A DNA stretch of 64,000 nt from Bolinopsis microptera (lineage: Eukaryota; Ctenophora; Tentaculata; Lobata; Bolinopsidae), in NCBI RefSeq assembly GCF_026151205.1, contig NC_087082.1:10734901-10798900 (forward strand). Direction: 5' to 3'. The notes beneath the pieces were generated by a model. It was given only the letters and a program-made list of their open reading frames with translations, searched no databases and had not been told where the DNA came from. Of this stretch, positions 8,801-61,620 are shown one piece after another. The position numbers and the translations under genes are program-made. Every line of letters starts with the position of its first letter. The first letter of the stretch is position 1.

Positions 8801-11800
8801 TAACTGTTTTAGAAATAAATAACGTCTTATGTTTTGACCATGCTCGATAATATATGACAAACTTAGCTATAGTTTTTTAAAAAGGGTTAAAATAGATTAA
8901 ATACAAATGCTTCCGACCAGAGTTGAAATTCTGTTAGAATTGAGGATAAAAACATACCCATAACTTTAGTGTCGATCTGCTGAGAGAAGAAAACGCACTC
9001 GAACATTGAACTGACAGTAAGATTCTGCTTCATGATAACGAAATTGAGGTTCTCTGGCGATAAATCCTTGATGAAACTGCAAAGATAGGGGTGTCATTAT
9101 TATTAGCTGTCAGTTTTATGTTTCTTTCAAGTACGTCTGTGTCATTTTAGAAGCGCAATTTGATGAAAAAACATGTTTTATAAAACGAAAATGTTTTTAC
9201 CACATATATAATGATTATATATAATTTTGATTTACGAGATTCTTTTTAAAAGATTTTCAAATTCATCAAATTTCTGATCATTTATTATAATGATCTGCCA
9301 AACAATGTCAACCCATCTCATCGGAAATTTAATGAATTTGAAAATCGTTTAAAAAGAATCTCGTAAATCAAAATTAAGAATTCCACATTGCCCGTACTTC
9401 ATACTTACTGGCAAAGTACAGTGTGTCTAGAGTACTCTATCGTGATGTTCCATTTCTGAGATTTAGACTCGCTGTTAGGAATTCCAAACTCCAGACTGCT
9501 TCCCCGGATATGGGGCCGTATTTTATATTTTGTACAGTCTGAAATAATTGTCACGTGGTTATTTGTCACGTGGTTAATTGTCACGTGGTTATTTGTCACG
9601 TGGTTATTTGTCACGTGGTTATTTGTCACGTGGTTATTTGTCACGTGGTTATTTGTCACGTGGTTATTTGTCACGTGGTTATTTGTCACGTGGTTGTTTG
9701 TCACGTGGTGATTTGTCCGCGCGGCTCTGCCTTGTGCTGAGACGTGGATTCTGGTTGGGAAGTGAAACAAACACGTGACAGCAGTTAACTAGTCAGCTTC
9801 CACTATTGACCTATCAAACCCCAGACTCTCCTATCAAAAATAGATGCTCAACCTCCTCACCAGAATCAAATTAAACATCTATTATTATAGTTAAAGCAAC
9901 TTCTCACGAACAAACATCACCACCATGGCTACCATTAAATTGGACGTTGATCCAATACTGGAGTGCTTCTTAATAACTATAAAAGAATCTACCGATAAGA
10001 AAAAATATCAACCAAACTTAATAAAAATGTGTACCTGAGCAGCCAGCCTCTTTTACGAGTATTTTAATCCCTGAAGGGTCGATATTTCCGTAATCCGTTA
10101 CATTGTGCAGGCATATGTTAACGAATGTCTTTTTTCCATGAACTCGTTCGCTGAAATTAAAACAAATATAATTTAATCATGATGTCACGATTCATGAATC
10201 CTTCCCCTAATTTTAAAATTTCCTTGGAGTAAAAACAAGAGTCTAGTTAAAAAGCCATGTAGGAATCGATTGCTTAGGACTGTGTGAACTATGAAATCCC
10301 CATCCTTCAAAAGGTGACGATATTTGAGGTGATCAGGATTAATCAGGTTGTTCCCTCTTATTAAACATTCTAAGATCTGTTCCAGTATTCAATCTCTCTT
10401 CGATCCTTTTCTTAAAAATCTTAGTGCCTTGGCCAGTAAAAAGTGCCAAGGATTGAGTAGAAATCCAATACAAGCAGGGTGACACCTTCAACAAAAGCTT
10501 AACTACAATAGTATTTATATTTATTATTTATATTGTAGACAATAGAGGCTGTTAGTCCTTGGTCCGGGTATGGGAACGAACAATGGTCCAGAACAAAAGC
10601 CTCGTTTTCAGAAATTTACTGGCACTGTAGTGGTTAGTATCATATTTTAAACATGTTTTAAACTAATTAAAACACTACAAATCTATTGCATTTATTGAGG
10701 ACGTTACAGAAGGAATTGATTTAATATAGTTTGAGAAGTCCTAACTCTCCTCACGTCCGAAAATGTCGTTTCTCTTGTATCAAATATAAGCACAGCTATT
10801 ATATTCGGTAGAACACAGTATGTATAACCCTGGGCAGTATCTAGATAGCCCGACCACTGTCACGAACAACTGTCTACCAGATCATATTACTGCATAATAA
10901 CAGTATCCCCTGAATCAAGCAGGGTTCACATTATCGCACGCGAATTTCAATCAGCGGTGGTGTCAAGGCTTATTAAACGATTAAGCAACCTTACGAGATC
11001 AGTTCACCACCTCCAGCCGCTGTATTACAACCCAGTCATCCAGCTGATGTATTACAGCCTAGTCCTCCAGTTGCAGTTGATCATCCCCCTTCTACAAGCA
11101 GAGTAGCAACTGATAATGCTTCACAAAAAACGAACGACTTAGGCCCTTTGTTTCTGTCTAGTTCTAATGTACCGTCACAATAGTGACTTTAAATATATAA
11201 TCAAGAGTACTAGCCTGCTGATTTATCGCGGCTGTTCTCATCTGAAACTATGCTTGGTGTAGCTCGTTGGGATAATGGATATAAAACCAAATTATTCTCC
11301 CTTCTCTAGGTTACGCTGCATTCGCATGGCAGCATAGAATAGACGAAGCCCAATACATAAAGACCAAGATGCAGGCAATTCAGAGACACGCTAGTATCAT
11401 GATATCAAGAGGACTCAAAAGCACACCACTAGAAAACTTGGAAATCATGGCAGGAATCAAACCCATTGATCTAAAACTCAAGGAACTGGCCATACTTTCA
11501 GCTCGGAGACTCAAAATTAACGGTAATTGGAATTCTAACTACCAGTTTAGCAGAACAGGAAACTGTAAGTCCCATGCATACAATCTGGACAAAGCTATGT
11601 CAACCATACCAGCGATGGAATGTAAAATTACGGACATTATCGAAACTACCACAGTTTTGGATCGGAAGTTTAAAACAATAATACAGGAGCGGTCTAAAGC
11701 AACACAGCAGGTCGGAATCACCCCAGCAACACATTGGGCTATTTTCACAGACGGCTCAAAAATAGAACAGTTCCCAGGTGCAGGTTACTGTGTAATAAGA

Positions 11801-14800
11801 AACGCAATCGAGGTCCAGAGACAAAGTTTCCACCTAGGCACTAATGCAACGGTATACCAGTGTGAACTGTTTGCTCTCAACACATCAGCTCACTGGGCAA
11901 CTATCAATATTTCAGAACCTGGGAGTATAACATTCTTTTCAGACTCACAGGCAGCAATCCTAGCAGTCACACACCACACGGTCACATCTAACTTAGTTCT
12001 TGATACCATTAACTACCTTAACAAACTAGGACAAACCCACTCAGTCAATGTCAGGTGGGTCCCAGGACATGCAGGAATTCCAGGAAACGAAAGAGCTGAT
12101 GAACTAGCCAGAGAAGGATCACTCACAATCGCTCTAGGTCCTGAACCCTTCATCAGCATATCCGAAGGAGCAATTAAGACGGCAGTAAAGGAGTATTTAC
12201 ACGGAATTCATCTTCGTAGATACAGGAACACGGCACTGAGCGAGAAAGGGAAAATACCACTAACAATCCTACTCACCAAATATAAATACAGGAATCTTGG
12301 ACTTGCAGGAAATCATCAAAGATGGCTAACCTGGCTCTTCACAGGACATAGCCCCCTAGCCTACTTCCAATACAAGGCAAACAATTTCACATCCCCCCGT
12401 TGTGAACACTGTCCAGAAGAGGAAGAAACCTCGGAACACTTCATGTGTCACTGTATAGGATACATGACCATTAGGTTAAGAATTTTCGGTAATATATTTC
12501 TAACCTGGGAAGACATAGTATCAGCTAGAATTAGTACGGTTATAAAATTTATCGAGGCAACCAATAGACTTTTAAAGGAGGATCTTTTCGAGGATCCCAT
12601 TAACCACTAATACAAATAGGACATCTTGCAGTTTACTAGGCATTGACTGTCCCTGGAAGTCCCTGTCTCCCCATCGTTAACCCGTAAGGGGTTGCACCAG
12701 GGGCGGTGGTAACAGAACTTCAAGACTCTCGGAGTCTGTTGTCGATATCTATGTATAATATATTTATGGTATATAATTTGGGAGTCTCTCTCTCCAGCAG
12801 CAGGAGTTGGAGAATGGGGACGCGTTGTGAAAGCCACCGCAAGGAAGGCTTACAGTCGACGCCGACCAATCAAAAGAAGCTCGTTGGGATAGTATAGGAA
12901 TTCTAGTTCCTATAGTTGGGAATGAGGTAGTTGTCTGTTCACAGATCGCCCTCTAAAAACTTACAAGGAAATATTTCCTGTAGATCCTTGGTATATAAGC
13001 AACATTTGACAGAGCTGGTAGACAGGTGTTCGTGGACAGTTGTTCGTGGACAGTTGTCCGCGGACAGTGGTCGGGCTATCTAGATACATGGTTAGTGCGT
13101 TTACTCGAGTATTGCAACCCCTGAGCGCTTATTACAAGAACATTGATACCACGATGAATAATGGATCAACTGTTTTACCGATAAAAAGAGATTTTGGAAG
13201 ATTTTTGAAGATGAGCTTTTCTGCCGTGCCCGTCTCCTAGACAGAAATTTCGCGGTTTGACTGAAATTTTGACCAGTAAACAATTAGTGAGGTCGGTCAG
13301 AGTGGCACAAGTCGCCATCAAGGTACTGGAAGCAGTATATCCGGAGAAAACTTTGTAACTTTGATGCAATGAACATTTTTAATATGTCCTAACGGTAGAA
13401 CATATTCGAATTGCAGCTTTCCGCGACCCAAATTGCACTGTTTTAACTCAATTTTCCTTAAATGACCATCTTACAGGGTCACTGAGGATGGTACAAGACA
13501 CTATTGAGGTACTCAACGTTCTATCTGTTGAAGTGCAATTTTAAAATTTTCGGCTCATGTCCCAGAATAAATGGGCCGCCATAGTGCCACGAGATTGCCA
13601 CGAGAGTGCCACGAGAGTGCCACGAGAGTGCCACGGGAGTGCCACGAGAGTGCCACGAGAGTGCCACGAGAGTGCCATCGAGATCCGGATGTATTACCGG
13701 TATTTTCAGCGAAATAAAACTCCAAGGATAAACAGGACTTACCCCACACTACTAATACCACTACTAGTTACTACTGCTAGTTTTTACTCACCCCATGTTA
13801 CAGAGATATCCAGAGAATTCCTGGTCATTCCTCACTACAGACATTACACTGTGGTCTTCTGCTTGAACCGTCATGTTACCTGCCCGGATAAATAAAGTGA
13901 GGAAACATTCCTAAAACTCTAATTTGTACATCCCTAGTACAACTTCTTGGTAATTCGGTAATCTGTCGATGGTCACATAACGCTCCTTAACCTAGCGGTT
14001 TGTGACCATGTGCCCCCCCCCCCTCCCCGATTGATAAAGTACCCGATAATAACTGAGTAAAAGAACCTTGAAATTTGAGAACATTGTGCTCAACATCCTC
14101 GTTGGCGTAATTGCGAGTAAAGACACTGACTCTGCCGAAGTACATCGTATCTGGAGGAGGTGTTAAAATGTTAACAATGTTAATCGTGTTAACAACGTTA
14201 AAAAAAGATTGAGATGGCTTTTTAAAAAGGAACTTTGAGAACAGACATGTTAAAAAAGAATTGCAACATGATCAACTTACCGTTTATATAAGTCCACTCT
14301 TCAGAAAGTCCATAGTACGGAGCACTCTTTATAGGAATTCTTGTTTGCTCTGCCTCCTGTGTGTACATTGTGTGTACATTGTGTGTACATTGTATGTACA
14401 TTATGTGTACATTGTGTGTACATTGTGTGTACATTGTGTGTACACTGTGTGTACATTGTGTGTACATTGTGTGTACATTGTGTGTACATTGTGTGTACAT
14501 TGTGTGTACATTGTGTGTACATTGTGTGTACATTGTGTGTACATTGTGTGTACATTGTGTGTACACTGTGTGTACATTGTGTGTACATTGTGTGTACACT
14601 GTGTGCACATTGTGTGTACATTGTGTGTACACTGTGTGTACATTGTGTGTACATTGTGTGTACATTGTGTGTACATTGTGAAGTGAACATACTCATTTAT
14701 TTTCAATAAACTCTATTGCTCACAGTGCTGACATAATTAAAACACTACAAAGTACAAATCTGTCGCATTTCTTGGGGTAAATAAGAGGGAAGTATGATTT

Positions 14801-22712: not shown

Positions 22713-22716
22713 TTAA

Positions 22717-23039: not shown

Positions 23040-23042
23040 TTA

Positions 23043-30094: not shown

Positions 30095-33000
30095 CTAAAT
30101 ACCGAAACCTCGGCTGCTTTCTTCGGCGTAAGCATACAGAAGATCTTCATCCTCCACAGACGTTTCCTCCTCCAACCCATGGGAATTCCAGGGCTGCACC
30201 TCAGCGGAACTAAACACACAGTACTGAAGAGATCCAAACATCCAAACCGCTGAAGCTGATAGGAAGGCTATTTTCCACCGTTCATGCAGTTTATCATGAT
30301 CATTTGGATCAACATCATTGACAAGAAGACCAACAGCGATGGGGCCCAGGATTCCAGCAACAGCACAAAGTCCATTACCAATACCACAGAGGATGGCAGA
30401 GAAGCGAGGAGAGAGATCAGCATAGTTCACATAATAGCAGAGGTGGGCGTAACCCTGGAAATACATTGCTATATTCATAAGAATCAGGATGGGGACATTG
30501 TTCTCACAGTAGGCCATGGCAGCCAGAAGAATGGCGGGAATAATCTGGGCAGCAACACTACACAGTTTCTTGTCCATGTTTTTGACAGTATTTCCGTTTC
30601 TTATAAGAAGATCAGAAAGGTATCCACCGGAAGTGTAACCAAGGTAAATCATGACGTAAGGTAGCGAGGCTATAAACCCGGAGTCTTTCATGTTGTACTG
30701 CAAAACTTCGATCATAAACTTGGGAATGTCTGACAGTAACATGAAGAACCCATACCTGAGGAATTTCGGATTGAATTGCATGTTTCGTAAACAACAGGTC
30801 AAAGATTCTTGAATTTTTCGAAATTTAAAAGTTGAGAGTAGAAATAACCATTCTTCGAGTTTGGCATTATTAACATACCCATTACAAGTGTGTATGACAC
30901 AAGTTGACCAAAATCGTCCGCTCTTCAGAATACTTTTCCAGGGTATTTCAGATATCTGAACTGCTTTCCTTGGGACTGTAGTCGCGGCCAAGTATTCCCT
31001 TTCAGAGGTGGAAGTCCAGTATGATGTGGCCGGATCATCTCTAACAAATACAAACCATAGCAGAGCCCATAGTACTCCACAGCCTCCATACACATAGAAA
31101 AGACTGGGCCAGCCCTCTAAAAAGCTACCAGAAGCTAACAGTCCAGAAACAGAGTTCGCCAGGACAGCCCCCAGATACTGACCACCGCCCCCTAAAGCTA
31201 TAAACGTGGCAAACTGAGAAGAAGGGGCCCAGTTTGCAATGATGTTCAGGGCCACTGGGAATGTTACACCTTGCCCCAATCCAATGAAAAGACGCAGTGC
31301 AATGAACAGCCAAAAGTTGACACCAGAGATAAAAGGACAAAGGAAGGTTGCTAGGATGGCGATGAAGAGGCCGATACTAAAGACTTTGCTGGCCCCAAAA
31401 TAACAGCATATCACAGCGCCCGGAAGCTGCGTGGCCCAGTAGCCCCAGAAAAATGAGCTCAGAACGTAACCTAGGAAAAATATTTTTAATTTTCACTCGA
31501 TGTGGAAATACGTTACCCGAACACTATTATCATTGAATTTAAAGACCGATCTTAAACTGGATAGGATATGTTAATTATCTGTAATGTTAATGAAAAAATA
31601 CAAGAGGCAGAAAAGAAAGCTAAATAAGAACCTTGTTGAGCTTGAGACCAACATCTTGTATCATTTGCAGTACAATTTTCTGGGGCAACCACCATCTCAC
31701 TATCCAACGCGAAACTGAAAAATCATCATTCAATCAAAACTATTCTGTTCGATGTGACTAAGAAGCTGCGTCATGCAACTCCTCTTTTTTCTGAACCCAT
31801 GCTGGTTCGTATTGATCATCATGTTCTCTTCCAAATGACGAACCAGGTTTTTTCTGATGACACACTCAAATGTCTTTATGATGTGCGAGGTTAAAGACAC
31901 TGGTCTATAGTTTGCTGGGTCCGTTCTGTCCCCCTTCTTATAGATAGGGGTGATATATTAGGTCTTTAATTCCGCTGGTATATACCCACTGCTGAACGAT
32001 TCCTGCCAGAGGAGTGTTAGCGGGTCTGCAAGTTGTTCTTTGCAGGCTGTGAGTATCCTAGCAGGAATCTCTCCGTCAGGTGCGGCAGAATAGGGATCCA
32101 GTTCTCCTAATGCTTCAATGATATCTTTTCTTGTGAAGCTTAGCTCATTGAATCCGGAATTCAGTCCCTGAGGTAATCCTTGGCTCTTCATACATTCATC
32201 AATATCAGCACTCATAGGGTTACTAAATACCTTCTGGTACTGCTTCTGAAGTAACTCTGCCTTGATACTGGGGTCGTCCACTAATGCCCCAGTCTCATCT
32301 CTCAACACCGGGATCGTAGATCTGGTCTTCTGAAAACGCTTGGCATACGAAAAGAAGTATTTCGGGTTCTTCTTTATTAGGTGTGCCTAAAGTACAGGGT
32401 GTGCCTAAACTACAGGGTGTGCCTAAACTACAGGGTGTGCCTAAACTACAGGGTGTGCCTACTGCCTAAAGTCTGGTCAGGATTTACGTTTTAAATAACC
32501 TTTTCTCCCCAACTGGAACCTTCGCAGTAAATCGGGGTTTTACTGTGCTAGGATTCGTATGATAGGTAGAACTACAGGGTGCAGTATTCCTAGTTTTATA
32601 TAAATATAACCTGCCCAAGCTAAAAAGCCATGGCAGGGCCAGCAGGCAAAGCCCAGACTAAATCCTACTGAGCTGACTAGTGACTACGTATGAAATAACA
32701 ATAGGGGAATGAACAATGAATAATGTGTACATACATATACATACATATACACATATACATACATATACATATACATTATACAGGTACCATGTATTATAGA
32801 GAGAAGGTGTACCAAAATAAGAATACTAGGTACCTGATGTTGAGAGCAGTACAAGTGTGTACCTAAATAATAACACTAGGTACCTGATGTTGAGAGCAGT
32901 ACAAGTGTGTACCTAAATAATAACACTAGGTACCTGATGTTGAGAGCATTGCAAGTGTGTACCTAAATAAGAACCTAAATACTAACCTAAATAATAACAC

Positions 33001-39921: not shown

Positions 39922-42900
39922 CGTGCAAGTGTGTACCTAAATAATAACACTAGGTACCTGATGTTGAGAGCATTGCAAGTGTGTACCTAAATAAGAACCT
40001 AAATAATAACACTAGGTACCTGATGTTGAGAGCATTGCAAGTGTGTACCTAAATAATAACACTAGGTACCTGATGTTGAGAGCATTGCAAGTGTGTACCT
40101 AAATAATAACACTAGGTACCTGATGTTGAGAGCATTGCAAGTGTGTACCTAAATAAGAACCTAAATAATAACACTAGGTACCTGATGTTGAGAGTATTGC
40201 AAGTGTGTACCTAAATAATAACACTAGGTACCTGATGTTGAGAGCATTGCAAGTGTGTACCTAAATAAGAACCTAAATAATAACACTAGGTACCTGATGT
40301 TGAGAGCATTGCAAGTGTGTACCTAAATAATAACACTAGGTACCTGATGTTGAGAGCATTGCAAGTGTGTACCTAAATAAGAACCTAAATAATAACACTA
40401 GGTACCTGATGTTGAGAGCATTGCAAGTGTGTACCTAAATACTAACACTAGGTACCTGATGTTGAGAGCATTGCAAGTGTGTATCTAAATAATAACACTA
40501 GGTACCTGATGTTGAGAGCATTGCAAGTGTGTACCTAAATAATAACACTAGGTACCTGATGTTGAGAGCATTGCAAGTGTGTACCTAAATAAGAACCTAA
40601 ATAATAACACTAGGTACCTGATGTTGAGAGCATTGCAAGTGTGTACCTAAATAAGAACCTAAATAATAACACTAGGTACCTGATGTTGAGAGCATTGCAA
40701 GTGTGTACCTAAATAATAACACTAGGTACCTGATGTTGAGAGCATTGCAAGTGTGTACCTAAATAATAACACTAGGTACCTGATGTTGAGAGCATTGCAA
40801 GTGTGTACCTAAATAATAACACTAGGTACCTGATGTTGAGAGCATTGCAAGTGTGTACCTAAATAATAACACTAGGTACCTGATGTTGAGAGCATTGCAA
40901 GTGTGTACCCAAATAATAACACTAGGTACCTGATGTTGAGAGCATTGCAAGTGTGTACCTAAATAATAACACTAGGTACCTGATGTTGAGAGCATTGCAA
41001 GTGTGTACCTAAATAATAACACTAGGTACCTGATGTTGAGAGCATTGCAAGTGTGTACCTAAATAATAACACTAGGTACCTGATGTTGAGAGCATTGCAA
41101 GTGTGTACCCAAATAATAACACTAGGTACCTGATGTTGAGAGCATTGCAAGTGTGTACCTAAATAATAACCTAAATACTAACCTAAATAATAACACTAGG
41201 TACCTGATGTTGAGAGCATTGCAAGTGTGTACCTAAATAATAACACTAGGTACCTGATGTTGAGAGCATTGCAAGTGTGTACCTAAATAAGAACCTAAAT
41301 AATAACACTAGGTACCTGATGTTGAGAGCATTGCAAGTGTGTACCTAAATAAGAACCTAAATAATAACACTAGGTACCTGATGTTGAGAGCATTGCAAGT
41401 GTGTACCTAAATAATAACACTAGGTACCTGATGTTGAGAGCATTGCAAGTGTGTACCTAAATAATAACACTAGGTACCTAATGTTGAGAGCATTGCAAGT
41501 GTGTACCTAAATAAGAACCTAAATAATAACACTAGGTACCTGATGTTGAGAGCATTGCAAGTGTGTACCTAAATAATAACACTAGGTACCTGATGTTGAG
41601 AGCATTGCAAGTGTGTACCTAAATAATAACACTAGGTACCTGATGTTGAGAGCATTGCAAGTGTGTACCTAAATAATAACACTAGGTACCTGATGTTGAG
41701 AGCATTGCAAGTGTGTACCTAAATAATAACACTAGGTACCTGATGTTGAGAGCATTGCAAGTGTGTACCTAAATAAGAACCTAAATACTAACACTAGGTA
41801 CCTGATGTTGAGAGCATTGCAAGTGTGTACCTAAATAATAACACTAGGTACCTGATGTTGAGAGCATTGCAAGTGTGTACCTAAATAATAACACTAGGTA
41901 CCTGATGTTGAGAGCATTGCAAGTGTGTACCTAAATAATAACACTAGGTACCTGATGTTGAGAGCAGTACAAGTGTGTACCTAAATAATAACACTAGGTA
42001 CCTGATGTTGAGAGTATTGCAAGTGTGTACCTAAATAATAACACTAGGTACCTGATGTTGAGAGCATTGCAAGTGTGTACCTAAATAATAACACTAGGTA
42101 CCTGATGTTGAGAGCATTGCAAGTGTGTACCTAAATAATAACACTAGGTACCTGATGTTGAGAGCATTGCAAGTGTGTACCTAAATAAGAACCTAAATAC
42201 TAACACTAGGTACCTGATGTTGAGAGCATTGCAAGTGTGTACCTAAATAAGAACCTAAATAATAACACTAGGTACCTGATGTTGAGAGCATTGCAAGTGT
42301 GTACCTAAATAATAACACTAGGTACCTGATGTTGAGAGCATTGCAAGTGTGTACCTAAATAATAACACTAGGTACCTGATGTTGAGAGCATTGCAAGTGT
42401 GTACCTAAATAATAACACTAGGTACCTGATGTTGAGAGCATTGCAAGTGTGTACCTAAATAAGAACCTAAATACTAACACTAGGTACCTGATGTTGAGAG
42501 CATTGCAAGTGTGTACCTAAATAAGAACCTAAATAATAACACTAGGTACCTGATGTTGAGAGCATTGAAAGTGTGTACCTGAATAATAACACTAGGTACC
42601 TGATGTTGAGAGCATTGCAAGTGTGTACCTAAATAATAACACTAGGTACCTGATGTTGAGAGCATTGCAAGTGTGTACCTAAATAAGAACCTAAATACTA
42701 ACACTAGGTACCTGATGTTGAGAGCATTGCAAGTGTGTACCTAAATACTAACCTAAATAAGAACCTAAATAATAACACTAGGTACCTGATGTTGAGAGCA
42801 TTGCAAGTGTTTACCTAAATAATAACACTAGGTACCTGATGTTGAGAGCATTGCAAGTGTGTACCTAAATAATAACACTAGGTACCTTATGTTGAGAGCA

Positions 42901-45900
42901 TTGCAAGTGTGTACCTAAATAATAACACTAGGTACCTGATGTTGAGAGCATTGCAAGTGTTTACCTAAATAATAACACTAGGTACCTTATGTTGAGAGCA
43001 TTGCAAGTGTGTACCTAAATAATAACACTAGGTACCTGATGTTGAGAGCATTGCAAGTGTGTACCTAAATAATAACACTAGGTACCTGATGTTGAGAGCA
43101 TTGCAAGTGTGTACCTAAATAATAACACTAGGTACCTTATGTTAAGAGCATTGCAAGTGTGTACCTAAATAATAACACTAGGTACCTGATGTTGAGAGCA
43201 TTGCAAGTGTGTACCTAAATAATAACACTAGGTACCTGATGTTGAGAGCATTGCAAGTGTGTACCTAAATACTAACCTAAATAATAACACTAGGTACCTG
43301 ATGTTGAGAGCATTGCAAGTGTGTACCTAAATAATAACACTAGGTACCTTATGTTGAGAGCATTGCAAGTGTGTACCTAAATAATAACACTAGGTACCTG
43401 ATGTTGAGAGCATTGCAAGTGTGTACCTAAATAAGAACCTAAATAATAACACTAGGTACCTTATGTTGAGAGCATTGCAAGTGTGTACCTAAATAAGAAC
43501 CTAAATAATAACACTAGGTACCTGATGTTGAGAGCATTGCAAGTGTGTACCTAAATAAGAACCTAAATACTAACACTAGGTACCTGATGCTGAGAGCATT
43601 GCAAGTGTGTACCTAAATAATAACACTAGGTACCTTATGTTGAGAGCATTGCAAGTGTGTACCTAAATAATAACACTAGGTACCTGATGTTGAGAGCATT
43701 GCAAGTGTGTACCTAAATAAGAACCTAAATAATAACACTAGGTACCTGATGTTGAGAGCATTGCAAGTGTGTACCTAAATAAGAACCTAAATAATAACAC
43801 TAGGTACCTGATGTTGAGAGCATTGCAAGTGTGTACCTAAATAATAACACTAGGTACCTGATGTTGAGAGCATTGCAAGTGTGTACCTAAATAAGAACCT
43901 AAATAATAACACTAGGTACCTGATGTTGAGAGTATTGCAAGTGTGTACCTAAATAAGAACCTAAATAATAACACTAGGTACCTGATGTTGAGAGCATTGC
44001 AAGTGTGTACCTAAATAAGAACCTAAATAATAACACTAGGTACCTGATGTTGAGAGCATTGCAAGTGTGTACCTAAATAATAACACTAGGTACCTGATGT
44101 TGAGAGTATTGCAAGTGTGTACCTAAATAAGAACCTAAATTATAACACTAGGTACCTGATGTTGAGAGCATTGCAAGTGTGTACCTAAATAATAACACTA
44201 GGTACCTGATGTTGAGAGCATTGCAAGTGTGTACCTAAATAAGAACCTAAATAATAACACTAGGTACCTGATGTTGAGAGCATTGCAAGTGTGTACCTAA
44301 ATAATAACACTAGGTACCTGATGTTGAGAGCATTGCAAGTGTGTACCTAAATAATAACACTAGGTACCTGATGTTGAGAGCATTGCAAGTGTGTACCTAA
44401 ATAATAACACTAGGTACCTGATGTTGAGAGCATTGCAAGTGTGTACCTAAATAATAACACAAGGTACCTGATGTTGAGAGCATTGCAAGTGTGTACCTAA
44501 ATAATAACACTAGGTACCTGATGTTGAGAGCATTGCAAGTGTGTACCTAAATAATAACACTAGGTACCTGATGTTGAGAGCATTGCAAGTGTGTACCTAA
44601 ATAATAACACTAGGTACCTGATGTTGAGAGCATTGCAAGTGTGTACCTAAATAAGAACCTAAATAATAACACTAGGTACCTAATGTTGAGAGCATTGCAA
44701 GTGTGTACCTAAATAATAACACTAGGTACCTGATGTTGAGAGCATTGCAAGTGTGTACCTAAATAAGAACCTAAATTATAACACTAGGTACCTAATGTTG
44801 AGAGCATTGCAAGTGTGTACCTAAATAATAACACTAGGTACCTGATGTTGAGAACATTGCAAGTGTGTACCTAAATACTAACCTAAATAATAACACTAGG
44901 TACCTGATGTTGAGAGCATTGCAAGTGTGTACCTAAATAAGAACCTAAATAATAACACTAGGTACCCGATGTTGAGAGTATTGCAAGTGTGTACCTAAAT
45001 AATAACACTAGGTACCTGATGTTGAGAGCATTGCAAGTGTGTACCTAAATAATAACCTAAATTATAACACTAGGTACCTGATGTTGAGAGTATTGCAAGT
45101 GTGTACCTAAATAATAACACTAGGTACCTGATGTTGAGAGCATTGCAAGTGTGTACCTAAATAATAACACTAGGTACCTGATGTTGAGAGCATTGCAAGT
45201 GTGTACCTAAATAATAACACTAGGTACCTGATGTTGAGAGCATTGCAAGTGTGTACCTAAATAAGAACCTAAATAATAACACTAGGTACCTGATGTTGAG
45301 AGCAGTGCAAGTGTGTACCTAAATAATAACACTAGGTACCTGATGTTGAGAGCATTGCAAGTGTGTACCTAAATAAGAACCTAAATAATAACACTAGGTA
45401 CCTGATGTTGAGAGCATTGCAAGTGTGTACCTAAATAATAACACTAGGTACATGATGTTGAGAGCATTGCAAGTGTGTACCTAAATAAGAACCTAAATAA
45501 TAACACTAGGTACCTGATGTTGAGAGCATTGCAAGTGTGTACCTAAATAATAACACTAGGTACCTGATGTTGAGAGCATTGCAAGTGTGTACCTAAATAA
45601 GAACCTAAATAATAACACTAGGTACCTGATGTTGAGAGCAGTGCAAGTGTGTACCTAAATACTAACCTAAATAATAACACTAGGTACCTGATGTTGAGAG
45701 CATTGCAAGTGTGTACCTAAATAAGAACCTAAATAATAACACTAGGTACCTGATGTTGAGAGCAGTGCAAGTGTGTACCTAAATAAGAACCTAAATAATA
45801 ACACTAGGTACCTGATGTTGAGAGCATTGCAAGTGTGTACCTAAATACTAACCTAAATAATAACACTAGGTACCTGATGTTGAGAGCATTGCAAGTGTGT

Positions 45901-47110
45901 ACCTAAATACTAACCTAAATAATAACACTAGGTACCTGATGTTGAGAGCATTGCAAGTGTGTACCTAAATAATAACACTAGGTACCTGATGTTGAGAGCA
46001 TTGCAAGTGTGTACCTAAATAAGAACCTAAATAATAACACTAGGTACCTTATGTTGAGAGCATTGCAAGTGTGTACCTAAATAAGAACCTAAATAATAAC
46101 ACTAGGTACCTGATGTTGAGAGCATTGCAAGTGTGTACCTAAATAAGAACCTAAATACTAACACTAGGTACCTGATGCTGAGAGCATTGCAAGTGTGTAC
46201 CTAAATAATAACACTAGGTACCTTATGTTGAGAGCATTGCAAGTGTGTACCTAAATAAGAACCTAAATAATAACACTAGGTACCTGATGTTGAGAGCATT
46301 GCAAGTGTGTACCTAAATAATAACACTAGGTACCTGATGTTGAGAGCATTGCAAGTGTGTACCTAAATAAGAACCTAAATAATAACACTAGGTACCTGAT
46401 GTTGAGAGTATTGCAAGTGTGTACCTAAATAAGAACCTAAATAATAACACTAGGTACCTGATGTTGAGAGCATTGCAAGTGTGTACCTAAATAAGAACCT
46501 AAATAATAACACTAGGTACCTGAAGTTGAGAGCATTGCAAGTGTGTACCTAAATAATAACACTAGGTACCTGATGTTGAGAGTATTGCAAGTGTGTACCT
46601 AAATAAGAACCTAAATTATAACACTAGGTACCTGATGTTGAGAGCATTGCAAGTGTGTACCTAAATAATAACACTAGGTACCTGATGTTGAGGAGCATTG
46701 CAAGTGTGTACCTAAATAAGAACCTAAATAATAACACTAGGTACCTGATGTTGAGAGCATTGCAAGTGTGTACCTAAATAATAACACTAGTACCTGATGT
46801 TGAGAGCATTGCAAGTGTGTACCTAAATAATAACACTAGGTACCTGATGTTGAGAGCATTGCAAGTGTGTACCTAAATAATAACACTAGGTACCTGATGT
46901 TGAGAGCATTGCAAGTGTGTACCTAAATAATAACACAAGGTTACCTGATGTTGAGAGCATTGCAAGTGTGTACCTAAATAATAACACTAGGTACCTGATG
47001 TTGAGAGCATTGCAAGTGTGTACCTAAATAATAACACTAGGTACCTGATGTTGAGAGCATTGCAAGTGTGTACCTAAATAATAACAACTAGGTACCTGAT
47101 GTATTGAGAG
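39922..47110. repeat. Long 50/62-bp minisatellite array, left part (about 130 units)
   Basis: The basic unit is 50 bp: GTACCTGATGTTGAGAGCAT, TGCAAGTGTGTACCTAAATA, ATAACACTAG. A 62-bp variant has an extra AAGAACCTAAAT, and a rarer form has ACTAACCTAAAT. Units are nearly identical, with scattered changes (AGTATTGC, CCTTATG, CAGTGC). On the minus strand every unit contains CATCAG|GTACCTAG, the splice donor of SLC17 exon 2. Copy number is estimated from length only. No unit has spacers, so this is not a CRISPR array. Confidence 0.97.
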
Positions 47111-48390
47111 CATTGCAAGTGGTAAATCACTAGGAATATCAGAGAGCAATGTACTAATAAATAAAACACTTATGTACTAATGTTGTATGCAGATCCTTCA
47201 ATGTGCATCGCTATAATAATAAACACTAGGTAAGTGATCGTTGAGCGCTATGTGCAGTGTGTACCTACATATAGATCTATACTTATCACTAGCTCTAAAA
47301 TGTCGAAGAAGCCAAGTGGTTACAAATTAAAAAAAAATAAGTACCTGTATTGTTGGAGAGACTATTGAACGGTACCGATAGAAATACTATGATGATATAA
47401 GATACAGGTGTGCAATCAGGTCCCTTTACTAAGTCGTATGAGCAATTGAAAGTGTTGGCCCTTTAAAAAAGGAACCCCCTTCAGACAAAATATATATTAG
47501 GACCCATCCTTGCCGGCTTTTGCGGTGATAACTAAATGTTAAATAGGTACTTACTGATGTTGGGTATTAAAGTAAGTACCCACATAATTCTTAAATTCAT
47601 AAACATAGGCAAATATACCGTATTAGTAGGGTATTGTCAATGTGTGACTTAATAATAAACTAGAAACATTTTTGAGATTACAAAAAATACCCTAAATAAA
47701 AACTAGAAACCTATATTGAGAGACATTGCAAGTTGAAATTGATAAATGAAGCCTTGTTACAGAGCATTAACTGTTTCTGGAAATGAGCAGAGACCTAATT
47801 AATAACAAGGTACTAACTGGTTTTGAAGATAGCAAGTGTACACACCAATAATACATTCGACCTATGGAAATAAACTTTCTTTCCAACATTCTAAAGAAGC
47901 AGTGAGTGTTGTACCTCTGGGATAAATAAAAACACAATACATGAGTTCCATCTTTCCTTCAGTGCTCTGCTTTGGACATTAGCGTGTGTACATATAATCT
48001 ATCCTAATTGCAAAAGTCAAGGACATGATTGAGACATTGTCAAGTGTGTACCTTAAATACAGCCTAAATTTAATTTAAATGGCTGTGTTGAGAAGCATGC
48101 AACGGAGACCTTAAAGCAATATCTTGGCCTGGGACGTGGTGGCTGAAGCCCATTGCAAGTGGTTTCCCGTAAATAAAACCTTTAAAATCCATAAACCTGG
48201 TTTACCTGTTTGTTGATAGGTGCTAAGTGTGGTATCCTAAATACTAACCTCAACAAAAAATAACACAAGCCGTACCTTGATGTTGATAGTATGAATAAAA
48301 TTGGAATAACAATAATAATGGAACCTAAAATAAATAACACATATACACGATGTCTGATACATTATAAGGGTTTTACCTTATTATAGAAGA
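47111..48390. other. Garbled segment inside the array, probably a chimeric consensus
   Basis: In order, the segment shows damaged versions of 38690-39918 (GPCR 5' end, its flank and the RT fragment: for example GCCGGCTTTTGCGGT at 47512 and GAGTTCCATCTTTCCTTCAG at 47943), interleaved with array words such as GAGAGCATTGCAAGTG. Insertions and deletions occur every few bases. It looks like a consensus of two misaligned read sets, not like ordinary decay. Confidence 0.6.
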
Positions 48391-50982
48391 AATAATAACA
48401 CTAGGTACCTGATGTTGAGAGCATTGCAAGTGTGTACCCAAATAATAACACTAGGTACCTGATGTTGAGAGCATTGCAAGTGTGTACCTAAATAAGAACC
48501 TAAATAATAACACTAGGTACCTGATGTTAAGAGCATTGCAAGTGTGTACCTAAATAATAACACTAGGTACCTGATGTTGAGAGTAGTGCAAGTGTGTACC
48601 TAAATAATAACACTAGGTACCTGATGTTGAGAGCATTGCAAGTGTGTACCTAAATAAACACTAGGTACCTGATGTTGAGAGTAGTGCAAGTGTGTACCTA
48701 AATAATAACACTAGGTACCTGATGTTGAGAGCATTGCAAGTGTGTACCCAAATAATAACACTAGGTACCTGATGTTGAGAGCATTGCAAGTGTGTACCTA
48801 AATAATAACACTAGGTACCTGATGTTGAGAGCAGTGCAAGTGTGTACCTAAATAATAACACTAGGTACCTGATGTTGAGAGCATTGCAAGTGTGTACCTA
48901 AATAAGAACCTAAATAATAACACTAGGTACCTGATGTTGAGAGCAGTGCAAGTGTGTACCTAAATAATAACACTAGGTACCTGATGTTGAGAGCATTGCA
49001 AGTGTGTACCTAAATACTAACCTAAATAATAACACTAGGTACCTGATGTTGAGAGCATTGCAAGTGTGTACCTAAATAAGAACCTAAATAATAACACTAG
49101 GTACCTGATGTTGAGAGCATTGCAAGTGTGTACCTAAATAAGAACCTAAATAATAACACTAGGTACCTGATGTTGAGAGCATTGCAAGTGTGTACCTAAA
49201 TAAGAACCTAAATAATAACACTAGGTACCTGATGTTGAGAGCATTGCAAGTGTGTACCTAAATAAGAACCTAAATAATAACACTAGGTACCTGATGTTGA
49301 GAGCATTGCAAGTGTGTACCTAAATAAGAACCTAAATAATAACACTAGGTACCTGATGTTGAGAGCATTGCAAGTGTGTACCTAAATAAGAACCTAAATA
49401 ATAACACTAGGTACCTGATGTTGAGAGCATTGCAAGTGTGTACCTAAATAAGAACCTAAATAATAACACTAGGTACCTGATGTTGAGAGCATTGCAAGTG
49501 TGTACCTAAATAATAACACTGGGTACCTGATGTTGAGAGCATTGCAAGTGTGTACCTAAATAAGAACACTAGGTACCTGATGTTGAGAGCATTGCAAGTG
49601 TGTATCTAAATAATAACACTGGGTACCTGATGTTGAGAGCATTGCAAGTGTGTACCTAAATAATAACACTGGGTACCTGATGTTGAGAGCATTGCAAGTG
49701 TGTACCTAAATAAGAACACTAGGTACCTGATGTTGAGAGCATTGCAAGTGTGTATCTAAATAATAACACTGGGTACCTGATGTTGAGAGCATTGCAAGTG
49801 TGTACCTAAATAATAACACTAGGTACCTGATGTTGAGAGCATTGCAAGTGTGTACCTAAATAAGAACCTAAATAATAACACTAGGTACCTGATGTTGAGA
49901 GCATTGCAAGTGTGTACCTAAATAATAACACTGGGTACCTGATGTTGAGAGCATTGCAAGTGTGTACCTAAATAATAACACTAGGTACCTGATGTTGAGA
50001 GCATTGCAAGTGTGTACCTAAATAAGAACCTAAATAATAACACTAGGTACCTGATGCTGAGAGCATTGCAAGTGTGTACCTAAATAAGAACCTAAATAAT
50101 AACACTAGGTACCTGATGTTGAGAGCTTTGCAAGTGTGTACCTAAATAAGAACCTAAATAATAACACTAGGTACCTGATGTTGAGAGCATTGCAAGTGTG
50201 TACCTAAATAAGAACCTAAATAATAACACTAGGTACCTGATGTTGAGAGCATTGCAAGTGTGTACCTAAATAATAACACTAGGTACCTGATGTTGAGAGC
50301 ATTGCAAGTGTGTACCTAAATACTAACCTAAATAATAACACTAGGTACCTGATGTTGAGAGCATTGCAAGTGTGTACCCAAATAATAACACTAGGTACCT
50401 GATGTTGAGAGCAGTGCAAGTGTGTACCTAAATAAGAACCTAAATAATAACACTAGGTACCTGATGTTGAGAGCATTGCAAGTGTGTACCTAAATAAGAA
50501 CCTAAATAATAACACTAGGTACCTGATGTTGAGAGCATTGCAAGTGTGTACCTAAATAATAACACTAGGTACCTGATGTTGAGAGCAGTACAAGTGTGTA
50601 CCTAAATAATAACACTAGGTACCTGATGTTGAGAGCATTGCAAGTGTGTACCTAAATAAGAACCTAAATAATAACACTAGGTACCTGATGTTGAGAGCAT
50701 TGCAAGTGTGTACCTAAATAATAACACTGGGTACCTGATGTTGAGAGCATTGCAAGTGTGTACCTAAATAAGAACCTAAATAATAACACTAGGTACCTGA
50801 TGTTGAGAGCATTGCAAGTGTGTACCTAAATACTAACCTAAATAATAACACTAGGTACCTGATGTTGAGAGCATTGCAAGTGTGTACCTGAATAATAACA
50901 CTAGGTACCTGATGTTGAGAGCAGTACAAGTGTGTACCTAAATAATAACCTAAATACTAACCTAAATAATAACACTAGGTAC
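48391..50982. repeat. Long 50/62-bp minisatellite array, right part (about 45 units)
   Basis: Same units as 39922-47110, with more 62-bp variants and some with GGGTACC or CAGTACAAG. The array ends exactly at the donor of exon 2 of copy D (50983), which shares its first intron bases. Confidence 0.95.
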
Positions 50983-51474
50983 CTGATATTGATACGTAGG
51001 ATGTAGTCCATAATAAAGCCGTAACTCAGCAACAAAACTATCACATATCTAAACCAGCCCTGAAGAGAGAAAACAACAGGTTAAACACAAACAAGGGATG
51101 AAAAATTGAGAGGCGGTGTTATTTCATTACTAATAATTTACATATCGCGACAGTTTAGGTTCTGGGGAGGGAAAGGTTGTAGTCTGTAAGTGTTTAAGCA
51201 GAAACCTATGTATTCATTAGGCTTGAATAGTTTAATATTTAAATTTTCACCAAAAATGATAATGCTATTAATAGCTGGGCACCATAATTAACCATAGACA
51301 TATGGTGTTTAATAATAAAATAATAAACAAATATTAGATAAATAATAACATATAACTTACGGCTGATTTAACAGAAGTCTTGCTCTGAACGCTGTTCTCC
51401 ACTCCGTCTCCTCCGAGTAACGGAACACTCGAGTCTACAATACCTTCATCTGACATATCATCATAATCCACCAT

Positions 51475-52492: not shown

Positions 52493-52529
52493 CTACCTAG
52501 GCCTAACCTGGCGCTACCTAGGCCTAACA

Positions 52530-53557: not shown

Positions 53558-56500
53558 TTAACGTTGTCCATACAGCCACAATAATAATCTACAAACCTCA
53601 GCCAGGAAGCGGTTGAGAGCCTCGTAGTAGCCGTAACATTGCCAAGTCCCATTGTGGGTTCCACTCTCAAAACACTCGATACGCTTCATGGTGCTGCCAC
53701 ATAACTGTGGGGTCAGATCAGCTAATATGTGAGATCAGATCAACTAATTTGTCAATTTGTGGGATCATATCAAATAATATGTGGGATCAGATCAACTAAT
53801 ATGTGGGATCAGATCAACTAATTTGTCAATTTGTGGAATGAGATCAAATAATATGTGGGATTAGATCAGCTAATATGTGGGATCAGATCAGCTAATATGT
53901 GGGATCAGATCAACTAATTTGTCAATTTGTGGGATCAGATCAAATAATATGTGGGATTAGATCAGCTAATATGTGGGATCAGATCAGCTAATATGTGGGA
54001 TCAGATCAACTAATTTGTCAATTTGTGGGATCAGATCAAATAATATGTGGGATTAGATCAGCTAATATGTGGGATCAGAGTAGCTAATATGTGGGATCAG
54101 AGTAGCTAATATGTGAGATCAGATCAAAAGGTTTTAAACCTGAAGGAAATTTAATTTGAGAAAGGTTAATTTAACCTGTTTGGAAGTCCCAGAGTCCAAC
54201 CAATTTCACCATTTTGCTCCAAATTTTCGGCCTTCCCAGTCCCCCATTGAATTTTTCAAAAGTGTTTCTAAACTGCTATAAAAATCTCTCTAAAAAAGCC
54301 AGGTTCAAACATTGTCAGCTTAGGTTGAGGTGCCACTTTTTGAACTTATTTTTTACCTATGGTGGCGTTTACAGTGCAATGCGCGCATCGTGTACACTAC
54401 AGTGCAATGAGCACCAAAGAATTGGTTCAGTACGCGAATCTCCATAAATCTATAAAAAGCTATACAACTAATAAATTAACAACGAAACTCTAAATACCCA
54501 TATATCGTTCAGAGCACCAAGAGAATATTAACTAATTGTACAACACTACAGATCAACTAATGGGATGGAAGCGTTCTAAATGAAAAGCTCAAATGAAGGA
54601 ATGCATTCTACTATTGTACTTATAATAAACCAAGTCTGCTCATACATCCAGAGCAGACTTAGAAATCATCATAATAATATAATAGTTAAGTAAAATACCG
54701 CTATATATAACATTATAATTAGTATGTCGCCTAAATAATTACAAGCATGTGCTCGCTATTCATGTTTATCCAGATCTCTCCGCATTGTTCTTCAACATTT
54801 TCTTAAACTTAGTTTCTTGAATTAAAGTCAAAGCAAGCTCATGAGAGAGGAAAACGCAGATAAAGATCTAACATATTCTAGAGCAAATCAAAGGTTATAT
54901 AATATAATATATTAATTAAGCGGCATAAATCAAATCAGTAAAATGTAAATTTGAATAGGTAAGTAATTAGGGAAGCGGAAGAAGATATTATATAATCAAC
55001 TTACAGTGTATAATGTACAATGTACAATGTATAATCAACTTACAGTGCATAATGTACAATGTATAATCAACTTACAGTGTATAATGTACAATGTACAATG
55101 TATAATCAACTTACAGACTATAATGTACAATGTACAATGTATAATCAACTTACAGTGTATAGATCGCGGGTCATTTTGGGAGGGACGAGTGTATCAGCCA
55201 TACCAGATATGAATAGAGTGGGAGAAGATACCCGTTTTATCTCCTCTACACTCAGAAACTGAAAGAAAACATCATCATCAAAAACATCATCATCAAAAAA
55301 CATTTAAATAATTATAAACAAGAATTTATCTTTGTGTCCATATTTCATTATAAGGGAGTCCTTTGTGTCCACATTTCATTATATTGGAGTCAACGCAAAG
55401 GCAACAAATTAACACTGGTCAAAATATTGCAACACATGGTTAGTGGTTACGGATGTTAAGAATTAAGATGCACCTGAAATCTGAGTGAGGAACAACATAC
55501 CGACCCGGCATTTAATTTAGTAGAGCAGACTCGGTCGTAGAAAGATATTAGAAATTAAAAAGAAGACCGATGTCCCAAATGATCACCCTACCGCATCCTT
55601 TATACTTTATAGAGCAATACTAGTTCAAGTTCAACCGTAACTCTGGAATGGGCACTCCTATACCCTAATGGGCACCCTAAGGGTACTAGTTAGGGGACCC
55701 TGACTAATTCCCAATTAATATTAATAGTCCGACAAGGCGACAAAGTTACTAAGAAATTATTTCTTCTTGAAAAGATGGACGAGCACAGCTGTGCCCAAAT
55801 ACCTAGTCAGACGTCCGGGGGAGGGGGGTGATCTGAAAATCTGCGATTTTAGCGGACGTCCTAAGTAGATGGCCCCCTAGTCAATGACGTAGTTATCAAG
55901 GAGTAAGGTGATAACAAACCGTGCGTGATGGCGCGCGCGGCGTGCGTCGGTACATTACCGAATTGGCCCCAAACCCACACACTAGCCTGGCTCCTTTTCT
56001 CTCTTCACTTAAATTGTTATCATTACTTAACCAATACTTAAATAGTGACTTCTGCCTTTCTGCTACTGCCAATGAAACGAAAGTCATTCACACAGAAATT
56101 AATCTACATTATATTTATAGTTAATGTTAGCACAAGATAATAAGTAAAAAGTCACCCTGCTAACCAATAGTAAATAGTAACCTTGTTTCTGTAGCAGAAT
56201 AAAGGAAGGTATTTAGTTAGAGGGAAGATGACATGTGCCATCTCTGGAATGGAAGTGAAGGTATTCTCCAGGATCAGGGCGAATATCTTGTCTTGATACA
56301 GTTTACTGGCAGACAGGTGAACCGCCACTCCTCCGCCTAAAGTTTTGTAATATTGTATTATCAATAATATAAATATTATTAATATTTACAATACTACACT
56401 ATCAATATCACAATTTAATTTACTTAATTAATATTATTACTTATTTATTTTAGTAATATAGCGGAGAGGTGAACCGCTACTCCTCCACCTAAAGTTTTTA

Positions 56501-59500
56501 ATATTTTATATCAATATTATGAATATTATTAATATTTACTATATTATTACAATATCAATATCACAATTTATTTAATTAATATTATTATTTATTTATTTTA
56601 ATAATATAGCGGAGAGGTGAACCGCTACTCCTCCACCTGTCATTAAATTGAAACTATTTCAGAAGTCCTGTTTAATAATTGATTTCCCACATATGACAAG
56701 AGATATTGGCAGAAACTGCAGTAACTTGTGAAGTTTTGACATTTAGAAAGATTAGACGTGGGCGTTTTTAAAGACTATCCCTTATTTAGAACTTTCATTT
56801 AATAAATTCCAGCATCAGAAGTCATGTTTACGAATTTATTTAAATTACGGGCAAATATCATTCAATTTAAGTCTTATGTTTCAGTACCTATTACTCAAAG
56901 TTAATAAAATTTCAAAGTTAACAGCTCAATAATATAAGGGAGAGATGAACCGCCACTTTAATGACTACTCCACCTGAGTTAAATTGTTACACTTTCCCGC
57001 GTTATGTTTCTATTATTATCGGAAATAACGCGCTCTTTAAAGTTATATTTACCAAGGCTCCGTCCATATACAATAATCCTTCGTCTATCGATATCTTCTC
57101 TTGAAAGAAGAAACTCTAATCCACCCTCAGCATCCATCTTCATTCCTGGATAAGAGTTTATTGGATCAAAAGAAACCCCATGTAGCCTAATTTGAATGTC
57201 CAGTAGAGAGAAATGATACTTTAAGGGGGCCGGGGGGGGTGTTCATCAAAATTCTCTCGAAATCGACTTTATAGTTGTTTCTGATAGAGGGGAGTGATAT
57301 CTATCAGCTGCTTTTGGTCCCATGGAAAAATATTGTTCCTAGCCGAAATTATTGCCGGTCTAAGGTCAGCGCTTATGTGTAATTGTATTGCGCGAGCGAT
57401 TTTCAATCGCAAATTCTGAAAATCGAGTCTAAAAATCTATCTTCTCCCACATTTTTTGAGTAATCACCCTGAAACTTTCAGGATATGTTCTAGGGACCAT
57501 TTAAAAGAGATCACTAGGACAAAATTTTGAGATAGGCCTTTAAAAAATTTTATTCAATTTTGAAAATCTTGGACCTCAAAAAATTGTAAAAAAACGAGGT
57601 CCAAGATTTTCAAAATTGAATAAAAAATTTTTAAAGGCCATCTCAAAATTTAGTCTGAGCGATCTCTTTTAAATGGTCCCTAGAACATATCCTGAAAGTT
57701 TCAGGGTGATTACTCAAAAAATGTGGGAGAAGATAGAATTTTAGACTCGATTTTCAGAATTTGCGATTGAAAATCGCTCGCGCAATACAATTACACATAA
57801 GCGCTGACCTTAAACCGGCGATAATTTCGGCTAGGAACAATATTTTTCCATGGGACCAAAAGCAGCTGATAGATATCACTCCCCTCTATCAGAAACAACT
57901 ATAAAGTCGATTTCGAGATAATTTTGATGAAGACCACCCCCAGCTGGGTAAAAAGTTGTGCTATCGGCTATAAAGTATAGATTCACCATATTCGGATGCC
58001 AGTCCATCACTCTTCCCGAATCCCCTCCACTCTAACAAGAAGATATTGCACCCACAGAAACTATGAAGAGCTTTAGCGTTTATCAGTCGGTGTCCCACGT
58101 TCCCCGCGTTGCCGTGCAGGAAGATAACAGTGGGCGCGGTCGCTAGCTGAGGGAGGGGGGCATGTTAGATACTGCACAGTAAACAAAACCTGATTTACCG
58201 TAGCATTAAAGTCATTGAAATGGCCCATCAAACATAAATACCGCGTCATTTGATTTTAAACTAAGTTTCACACTCTTTAGCAGAGTAGTAGAGCGGTTCA
58301 TTAAGGGGGGAGGGGGGTTCACCCTGATTTTTTGTGAACCTTGGTTTCGAGATAGCAAGTCCGGTGACCAACAAACTAGGACCGGTGACCGAACTTTTGA
58401 GGGGGTCCCGGACCCTAACAGCCAAACGGTGCCCGCGGGGCAGCCACGCCCATATTTGGTCCAAATTAGGCCCAATTTAGCCAAATACCCTAAACATGCC
58501 CAAAATCCAGATTTTAGGTTCTCTACTTGTAGCTAGTGGTCCCCTAAATTCGTAAATGAATTTTCATCAAGATTGGACAAAAAATGACTGAGTTATGAGC
58601 CAAAAACCATATGACCATATTTGGGCATACGCACCAAATTTGATCGATTTTGGCCCATAAATTGGTCAAATATCAATATTTTTGAATGAATCTAACTTTA
58701 TATGGAAGGTAAGCCTATACTACACATTATCTATGATTATCAGCTCAGTAGCTACCTAACTGTGGATTCTGTGTTCAAATAATCGCAAAAAATTAACAAA
58801 ATTGCCCATATCTCAGTTCGCGAAATTTTTTTAAAGGCCTAACTCAACATTTTAATACAAAACGTAAGGTCGAAATGCGATTCTACGTTGATTATGAAAA
58901 TTTCATGTAAAAATATTGAAACCCTATTGAGTTCTATTGTTTTGAGTGAAATCAGTTTTGCAAATATCGCGAACTGAGATATGGGCGGTTTTGTTAATTT
59001 TTGGCGATTATTTAAACACAGAATCCACAGTTAGTTAGATACTGAGCTGATAATCATAGAGAATGTGTAGTATATGCTTACTTTCCATATAAAGTTGGTT
59101 TGATTCAAAATTATTGATATTTGACCAATTTATGGGCCAAAATCGATCAAATTTGGTGTGTATGTCCAAATATGGTCATATGGTTTTTGTCTCATAACTC
59201 AGTCATTTTTTGTCCAATCTTGATGAAAATTCCTATACGAATTAAGGGGACCACTAGCTACAAGTACAGCACCTAAAATTTGGATTTTGGGCATGTTCAG
59301 GGTATTTGGCTAAATTGGGCCTAATTTGGACCAAATATGGGCGTGGCTGCCCCGCGGGCACCGTTTGGCTGTTAGGGTCCGGGACCCCCTCAAAAGTTCG
59401 GTCACCGGTCCTAGTTTGTTGGTCAACTGCTATCTCGAAACCAAGTTTCACAAAAAAATCAGGGTGAACCCCCCCCCCCCCCCCCCCCTTAAGTTCACCA

Positions 59501-60954: not shown

Positions 60955-60965
60955 CTGGGAGTAGG

Positions 60966-61620
60966 TTCATGTTACAACAAGTTATCATGGGTTACCAATG
61001 GCTACAACAAGTTAGTGTGGGTTACTAATGGCTACAACAAGTTACTGTGGGTTGCTAATGGCTACAACAAGTTAGTGTGGGTTACCAATGGCTACAACAA
61101 GTTACTGTGGGTTACTAATGGCTACAACAAGTTAGTGTGGGTTACTAATGGCTACAACAAGTTACTGTGGGTTACCAATGGCTACAACAAGTTAGTGTGG
61201 GTTACTAATGGCTACCACAAGTTACTGTGGGTTACCAATGGCTACAACAAGTTAGTGTGGGTTACTAATGGCTACCACAAGTTACTGTGGGTTACCAATG
61301 GCTACAACAAGTTAATGTGGGTTACTAATGGCTACAACAAGTTACTGTGGGTTACTAATGGCTACAACAAGTTAGTGTGGGTTACTAATGGCTACAACAA
61401 GTTACTGTGGGTTACCAATGGCTACAACAAGTTAGTGTGGGTTACTAATGGCTACCACAAGTTACTGTGGGTTACCAATGGCTACAACAAGTTAGTGTGG
61501 GTTACCAATGGCTACAACAAGTTACTGTGGGTTACTAATGGCTACAACAAGTTACTGTGGGTTACCAATGGTTACTACAAGTTACTGTGGGTTACCAATG
61601 GTTACTACAAGTTACCCGTA
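60966..61620. repeat. 30-bp minisatellite with 60-bp higher-order period, beside an ABHD13-like exon
   Basis: About 22 units of GTTACTGTGGGTTACCAATG plus GCTACAACAA. Units alternate GTTAGTGTGG and GTTACTGTGG, so the true repeating unit is mostly 60 bp. The array begins about 12 bases from the acceptor of the exon at 60954. The long frame WVTNGYNKL across it results from the 30-bp period. Confidence 0.95.

Follow-up and report, generated by a model that had tools for sequence, protein, structure and literature searches.

The window analysed here is the whole 64-kb stretch C11:10734901-10798900 of a genome assembled into 264.65 Mb and 232 contigs, and the genes that concern us lie on its minus strand: a receptor gene, four SLC17 copies (A to D) and a hydrolase gene, which we take to be ABHD13-like. 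We placed their exons by homology, reading frame and GT-AG rules, and tandem arrays played no part in that placement. The seven exons of the ABHD13-like model yield a single open frame of 277 amino acids whose product matches Pfam Hydrolase_4 (E = 3.5e-16), and sialin is the best solved relative of the SLC17 copies. Exons 1 to 6 of the receptor join in frame; the join to exon 7 (8999/6516) broke the frame and was excluded, and later receptor junctions were left unused. Because comparison with Pfam gave no family match for the receptor, frame and splice signals by themselves carry its model. The coordinates of junctions and arrays are collected in Table 1.

Several further features share the window with these genes. 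The 14-kb intron 2 of SLC17 D contains an intronless gene for a rhodopsin-type GPCR (37894-38937) in the same orientation, and two more exon-2-like SLC17 copies, at 24272-24240 and 29199-29167, end in AACATCAG|GTAT without an array and may be relics or alternative exons. On the plus strand, a transporter gene at 16291-17939, presumably SLC22-like, matches Pfam Sugar_tr in its first part and contains one frame shift near 17334-17367. A pair of inverted repeats at 58305-58828 and 58962-59481, 94% alike and with relatives at 22197-22716 and 33577-34247, represents a dispersed foldback-like element. By eye, we also noticed a long inverted repeat at about 57240-57930 within an ABHD13-like intron and two sets of mobile-element-like frames, an RNase H-type frame at 11285-12610 (plus strand) and reverse-transcriptase-like pieces at 31730-32386 (minus strand).

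Table 1. Splice junctions and tandem arrays of the window (window positions) and three array-bearing kinesin introns elsewhere in the genome (contig positions)
Feature	Position	Strand	Remark
ABHD13-like acceptor	60954	-	first exon base
ABHD13-like acceptor	56336	-	first exon base
ABHD13-like acceptor	55258	-	
ABHD13-like donor	55154	-	last exon base
ABHD13-like acceptor	53704	-	first base of last modelled exon
Receptor acceptor	14356	-	first base of exon 2
Receptor acceptor	9538	-	first exon base
SLC17 copy A exon-2 donor	21102	-	single copy, array-free state
SLC17 copy B exon-2 donor	27205	-	single copy, array-free state
SLC17 copy C exon-2 donor	33008	-	last base of exon 2; from paralogue scan
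SLC17 copy D exon-2 donor	50983	-	last base of exon 2; from paralogue scan
11-bp array, 29 copies	14358..14680	-	1 bp from acceptor 14356; gives the A of its AG
15-bp array, 11 copies	9548..9717	-	9 bp upstream of acceptor 9538
30-bp array	60973..61615	-	18 bp upstream of acceptor 60954
22-bp-based array	53706..54127	-	1 bp from acceptor 53704; last unit is the acceptor's pyrimidine stretch
148-bp array, 2.2 copies	56315..56638	-	runs 22 bp into exon at acceptor 56336
39/32-bp array	54991..55161	-	covers donor 55154, 8 bp into exon
50-bp array, 202 aligned units	39997..50992	-	start of SLC17 D intron 2; 10 bp into exon
Short form of SLC17 50-bp array, ~3.4 units	32807..32998	-	9 bp (TRF) from copy C donor 33008
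Small 15-bp array	55266..55303	-	7 bp upstream of acceptor 55258; case additional to the initial annotation
Kinesin intron i52	C12:14428085-14430211		52 donors
Kinesin intron i54	C2:22504153-22505927		
Kinesin intron i56	C2:22511697-22514598		

Arrays were called with TRF and merged over both strands; single-strand TRF missed the 148-bp array at 56336. The initial annotation had reported that tandem arrays repeatedly lie at splice sites of these genes, and every junction it named is plausible by homology or frame, with an array on it or at most 18 bp away. Its observation that in three cases the unit itself contains the splice site likewise holds. The unit of the 39/32-bp array contains the donor CT|GTAAGTTGATTATAC (site 55154), and the 148-bp unit at 56336 carries the acceptor CTTTAG together with the opening codons of the exon that follows (GGGVAVHLSA). 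The 50-bp unit of SLC17 C and D reads AACATCAG|GTACCTAGTG, composed in copy D of the last bases of exon 2 (AACATCAG), the donor GTACCT and about 40 bp of intron. At four other acceptors the likeness between unit and junction is not significant (14356, p = 0.06; 55258, p = 0.21; 9538, p = 0.36; 60954, p = 0.64), the last value ruling out a by-eye impression that the 60954 acceptor is unit-derived.

The further claim that such proximity exceeds chance within the window stands when arrays are counted and fails when sites are: of the 17 arrays with a score of at least 100, 7 have an edge no more than 25 bp from one of the 55 curated splice sites, where circular shifting predicts 1.4 (p = 2.5e-4, a post hoc value, as the pattern was picked from the same data), whereas the converse count finds 9 of the 55 sites within or close to an array, which is no excess over the mean of 16.5 (p = 0.92). 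The latter runs in the opposite direction because arrays cover 17.6 of the 64 kb and avoid exons, and we dropped it as a test on these grounds. Under the seed null described below, 24 window introns hold 14 arrays, of which 7 come within 25 bp of a splice site where 2.0 would be expected (P = 3e-4, again post hoc); the set comprises 25 introns less intron 2 of SLC17 C, which shares the array of copy D, and acceptor 60954, for which the model has no upstream exon, falls outside it.

Beyond the window, introns were defined from exon rows of kinesin, myosin head and dynein DHC_N2, blind to repeats, by a resolver that takes profile spacing, frame and splice weights as its inputs. Among the introns with sequence, it resolved 63 of 65 for kinesin, 32 of 34 for myosin and 15 of 16 for dynein, with exact profile spacing in 44, 25 and 12 introns, respectively, and spacing within two residues in 57 kinesin introns. 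The 109 kinesin rows gave 65 exon pairs, from which two unresolved pairs and two paralogous duplicates (i10 and i12) were removed to leave 61; the 73 myosin rows, 58 of them typed, gave 38 pairs, of which four lacked sequence and two were unresolved, leaving 32 with very long introns excluded; and the 72 dynein rows, of which 20 were used, gave 16 pairs and, with one unresolved, 15 introns, from stretches picked by intron length ahead of viewing the sequence and with long introns excluded. The total sample of 108 introns and 61 arrays (TRF score of at least 50) covers a small fraction of the 264-Mb genome, and median intron length ranges from 217 to 349 bp across the three families. In the null, one seed unit is placed uniformly over the pre-growth intron with exon overlap allowed, and the resulting expectations depend on our model of seed placement and of pre-growth intron length.

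In these homology-defined introns, 23 of the 61 arrays have a splice site no more than 25 bp away, where the null predicts 12.2 (P = 1.9e-4), so that the preference of arrays for junctions extends beyond the window. The excess is concentrated within 12 bp (18 against 8.8) and continues at 13-25 bp (5 against 3.4), followed by a sharp drop at 26-50 bp (2 against 5.9) and 36 arrays against 42.9 beyond 50 bp. Arrays with a score of at least 100 behave alike (13 of 26 within 25 bp against 5.7, P = 5e-4), and the excess persists under stricter TRF settings and when any one 20-kb bin is left out (worst P 0.0012 at score 50 or above and 0.005 at score 100 or above). The observed-to-expected ratio within 25 bp is 1.9 (95% 1.4-2.4, bootstrap over 20-kb gene bins); an enrichment thus exists, but at about twofold it is weaker than the initial annotation had claimed. 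We conclude, with statistical support, that arrays start at or beside splice junctions at about twice the rate expected from uniform seeding.

Junction-spanning arrays make a less even case. At a score of at least 100 they number 7 of 26 against 2.4 expected (P = 0.005), in favour of the proposal that a local mechanism duplicates the junctions themselves, while at a score of at least 50 they number 7 of 61 against 4.1 (P = 0.10), and all seven lie in kinesin genes, with none among the 47 myosin and dynein introns. Because the spanning excess is weak at the lower threshold and confined to kinesin, a special junction-duplicating mechanism is at most suggested. Large arrays occur in several introns of some kinesin genes on C2 and C12 and few in the 32 myosin introns, and array load looks gene-specific. 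An adjoining stretch of 100 kb, which overlaps the window by 5.1 kb, shows no excess of the donor word GTAAGT, which is found in the units of 0 of 23 arrays, against 4 of 23 for the reversed word.

These numbers also bear on a reading with no junction preference, in which arrays can form at any position, damage to exons removes some of them, those that span junctions are harmless because the splice site at the exon edge survives, and short introns bring about nearness by chance. Such a reading fits the spanning arrays at the lower threshold, as well as the myosin and dynein introns taken alone, where 7 arrays fall within 25 bp against 4.3 expected (P = 0.11). It draws further support from the behaviour of the kinesin excess: our first, intron-conditional null (15 against 5.0, P = 7e-7) barred junction-spanning seeds and was rejected as overgenerous, and two runs of the fuller null gave 15 against 7.6 and 16 against 7.9. 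The pooled excess within 25 bp with its deficit at 26-50 bp, together with the excess among high-scoring arrays, nevertheless argues against it, and we regard the absence of any preference as unlikely.

In seven kinesin introns, arrays of 2-52 copies take in 12-30 bp of the coding exon, and the splice site is repeated with it. Five repeat a donor (unit length by copies: 38 bp x 2, 53 bp x 2, 33 bp x 52, 53 bp x 8 and 35 bp x 25) and two an acceptor (21 bp x 24 and 49 bp x 29), and one acceptor unit includes the stretch DLAGS, which we take to be a conserved kinesin motif. The splice core is intact in all 138 copies of the five longer kinesin arrays (i16, i52, i53, i54 and i56) and in 96% of the 202 SLC17 D units, which bears out the earlier proposal that the units copy splice junctions and so produce many decoy sites. 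Head-to-tail units of about 10-100 bp with variable copy number, such as define minisatellites, are what we find throughout, apart from the longer 148-bp unit at 56336; the SLC17 array, for instance, varies from about 3.4 units in copy C to about 202 in copy D. Related elements in many introns, the mark of introners, were not found for the i56 unit: an exact 27-mer of this 49-bp unit has 23 matches in the 264 Mb, and every one falls within the intron that carries the array or at its edge. Judged from this one unit and from exact matches, the i56 array is local.

Continued into the array, the reading frame of the exon runs into a stop within two units in all ten junction-spanning arrays considered (the seven of kinesin, 55154, SLC17 D and 56336). 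Use of the adjacent copy for splicing would introduce a stop in eight of these arrays; in the other two the frame would shift, through an added 53 bp in i53 and 74 bp in SLC17 D. Unit length is a multiple of three in only three of the ten (21, 33 and 39). Since splicing at an adjacent copy would disrupt the reading frame in every case, by a stop or a shift, the copy at the exon edge is the one that fits the protein, and we infer that this is the copy used in splicing and that the others are ignored decoys.

Intact cores might be taken as the sign of a selected function, in which the repeated splice sites would slow or regulate splicing by serving as decoys, enhancers or recursive splice points, and the splice positions are indeed better conserved than the rest of the unit in four of the five longer arrays (i16, i53, i54 and i56). 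Yet away from the splice positions the units of these arrays are also 96-99.9% alike, such that youth or homogenisation would also keep the cores; i52 and SLC17 D lack the extra conservation at splice positions; and unit lengths are arbitrary. We therefore consider a selected function very improbable. In recursive (ratchet) splicing, 3' and 5' splice sites that lie side by side are used stepwise, and AG|GT does occur in some of the units. Likeness as a function of distance from the junction shows a gradient of inconsistent sign among arrays.

The SLC17 copies allow the order of events to be read at one locus. Exon 2 and an identically placed intron 2 are present in copies A and B, where the one junction can be aligned with the C/D unit (copy A reads AACGTCAGGTACAGTGTGTTCTTATTT and the array unit AACATCAGGTACCTAGTGTTATTATTT). 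Because A and B have the intron without the array, the array is younger than intron 2 and grew out of the junction of a pre-existing intron. Copies C and D share the array as well as flanks that are 93% alike, and it therefore most likely predates the C/D duplication. Where functional exon and array copies differ, they do so at third codon positions: AAT against the unit's AAC in SLC17 C and D and CTC/CTT as the single difference in the exon part of i54, both by our frame reading, and all five differences in 29 bp at 56336. Selection thus seems to maintain the exon while the array copies stay alike among themselves.

That such arrays might produce new introns had been raised from the window, and under the Rogers model a tandem duplication of exonic AG|GT sequence would make an intron and leave the array as its remains. 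AG|GT does occur within the units of SLC17 C and D and of i16, but is absent at the junction of i53 and of 55154. An intron born in this way would be absent before the duplication and flanked by unit copies at both ends; in SLC17 the intron is present in array-free A and B, and the spanning arrays occupy one intron end, never both, in the seven kinesin introns, at 55154, at 56336 and in SLC17 D. The proposal is accordingly contradicted in SLC17 and lacks support elsewhere; intron birth appears highly improbable as the source of these arrays, which probably create no new introns. Faulty gene models or assembly stutter can be all but dismissed as the source of the pattern: splice sites were inferred from homology and frame and one join in the receptor broke the frame, but the kinesin introns were resolved with the success and profile spacing given above, the ABHD13-like frame is open across seven exons, and the assembly has the C and D arrays at two distinct loci and with different copy numbers.

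The reading that we favour, and hold to be likely, is that the arrays are intronic minisatellites born by ordinary local tandem duplication with a modest bias towards junctions, and that they give rise to decoys and longer introns. A local tandem duplication would seed on or beside a splice junction and then grow into the intron. The sequences show that the repeated segment often takes in the junction itself, that is the donor or acceptor and as much as 30 bp of the coding exon, and that the arrays extend into the intron with as many as about 200 near-identical junction copies. Tandem copies usually grow by slippage or unequal exchange, and these processes would both make and homogenise the copies here. 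Exon-edge nucleosomes, transcription or microhomology of splice motifs are our guesses as to the cause of the twofold bias. A bolder version, in which junctions are tandem-duplication hot spots tied to transcription, splicing or exon-edge chromatin that keep seeding perfect decoys and form a main route of intron growth, we entertain tentatively.

If genome-wide data confirm the bias, it would name a birthplace of tandem arrays and a route of intron lengthening. With or without such a bias, introns in which the splice site recurs in 25-200 near-perfect copies, the one at the exon edge fitting the protein, offer natural tests of how the spliceosome chooses its sites, and they may provide raw material for intron sliding and for new protein repeats.

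Several known systems bear comparison with these arrays. Tandem duplications of AGGT create introns (PMC3443670, PMC2891723), and in the ATP2A1 case of Hellsten 2011 one duplication led to a new intron bounded by the copies (PMC3443670, PMC4974935). There, as here, a local tandem duplication copies splice signals together with coding sequence, and some of our units carry AG|GT; unlike in that account, the introns studied here gain arrays of up to about 200 copies at one end, and the SLC17 intron pre-existed. In fission yeast, according to a study cited in PMC4974935, 24-bp exonic tandem copies contain AGGT and an intron runs across the copies. The likeness to that summary consists in several tandem copies of a short segment with a splice motif, and the difference in that the copies here lie inside the intron at one end and that the SLC17 intron is older than its array.

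Intron borders have been reported to carry direct repeats of 4-30 bp above chance, read as insertion scars (PMC11782384), and our arrays resemble them in lying at or near splice sites above chance but differ in being head-to-tail arrays at one border. In the Drosophila work, which joins intron sliding with tandem duplication, tandem splice sites let the junction move (PMC2891723), whereas no junction movement was observed in our arrays, whose adjacent copies would bring in a stop or a frame shift. Among the titles and abstract openings listed by our searches of the open-licence literature, we found no description of multi-copy junction-spanning arrays recurring in one animal genome. In the potato RdRp gene, as described in PMC4974935, a single duplication across an intron-exon boundary led to a new, expressed intron. 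As in some of our arrays, the duplicated segment there crosses the boundary and copies the 3' splice site, although our arrays are multi-copy, involve donors as well as acceptors, recur in one genome and give no indication of a new intron. The nearest known events are this potato boundary duplication and the AGGT duplications that create introns (PMC4974935, PMC3443670, PMC2891723).
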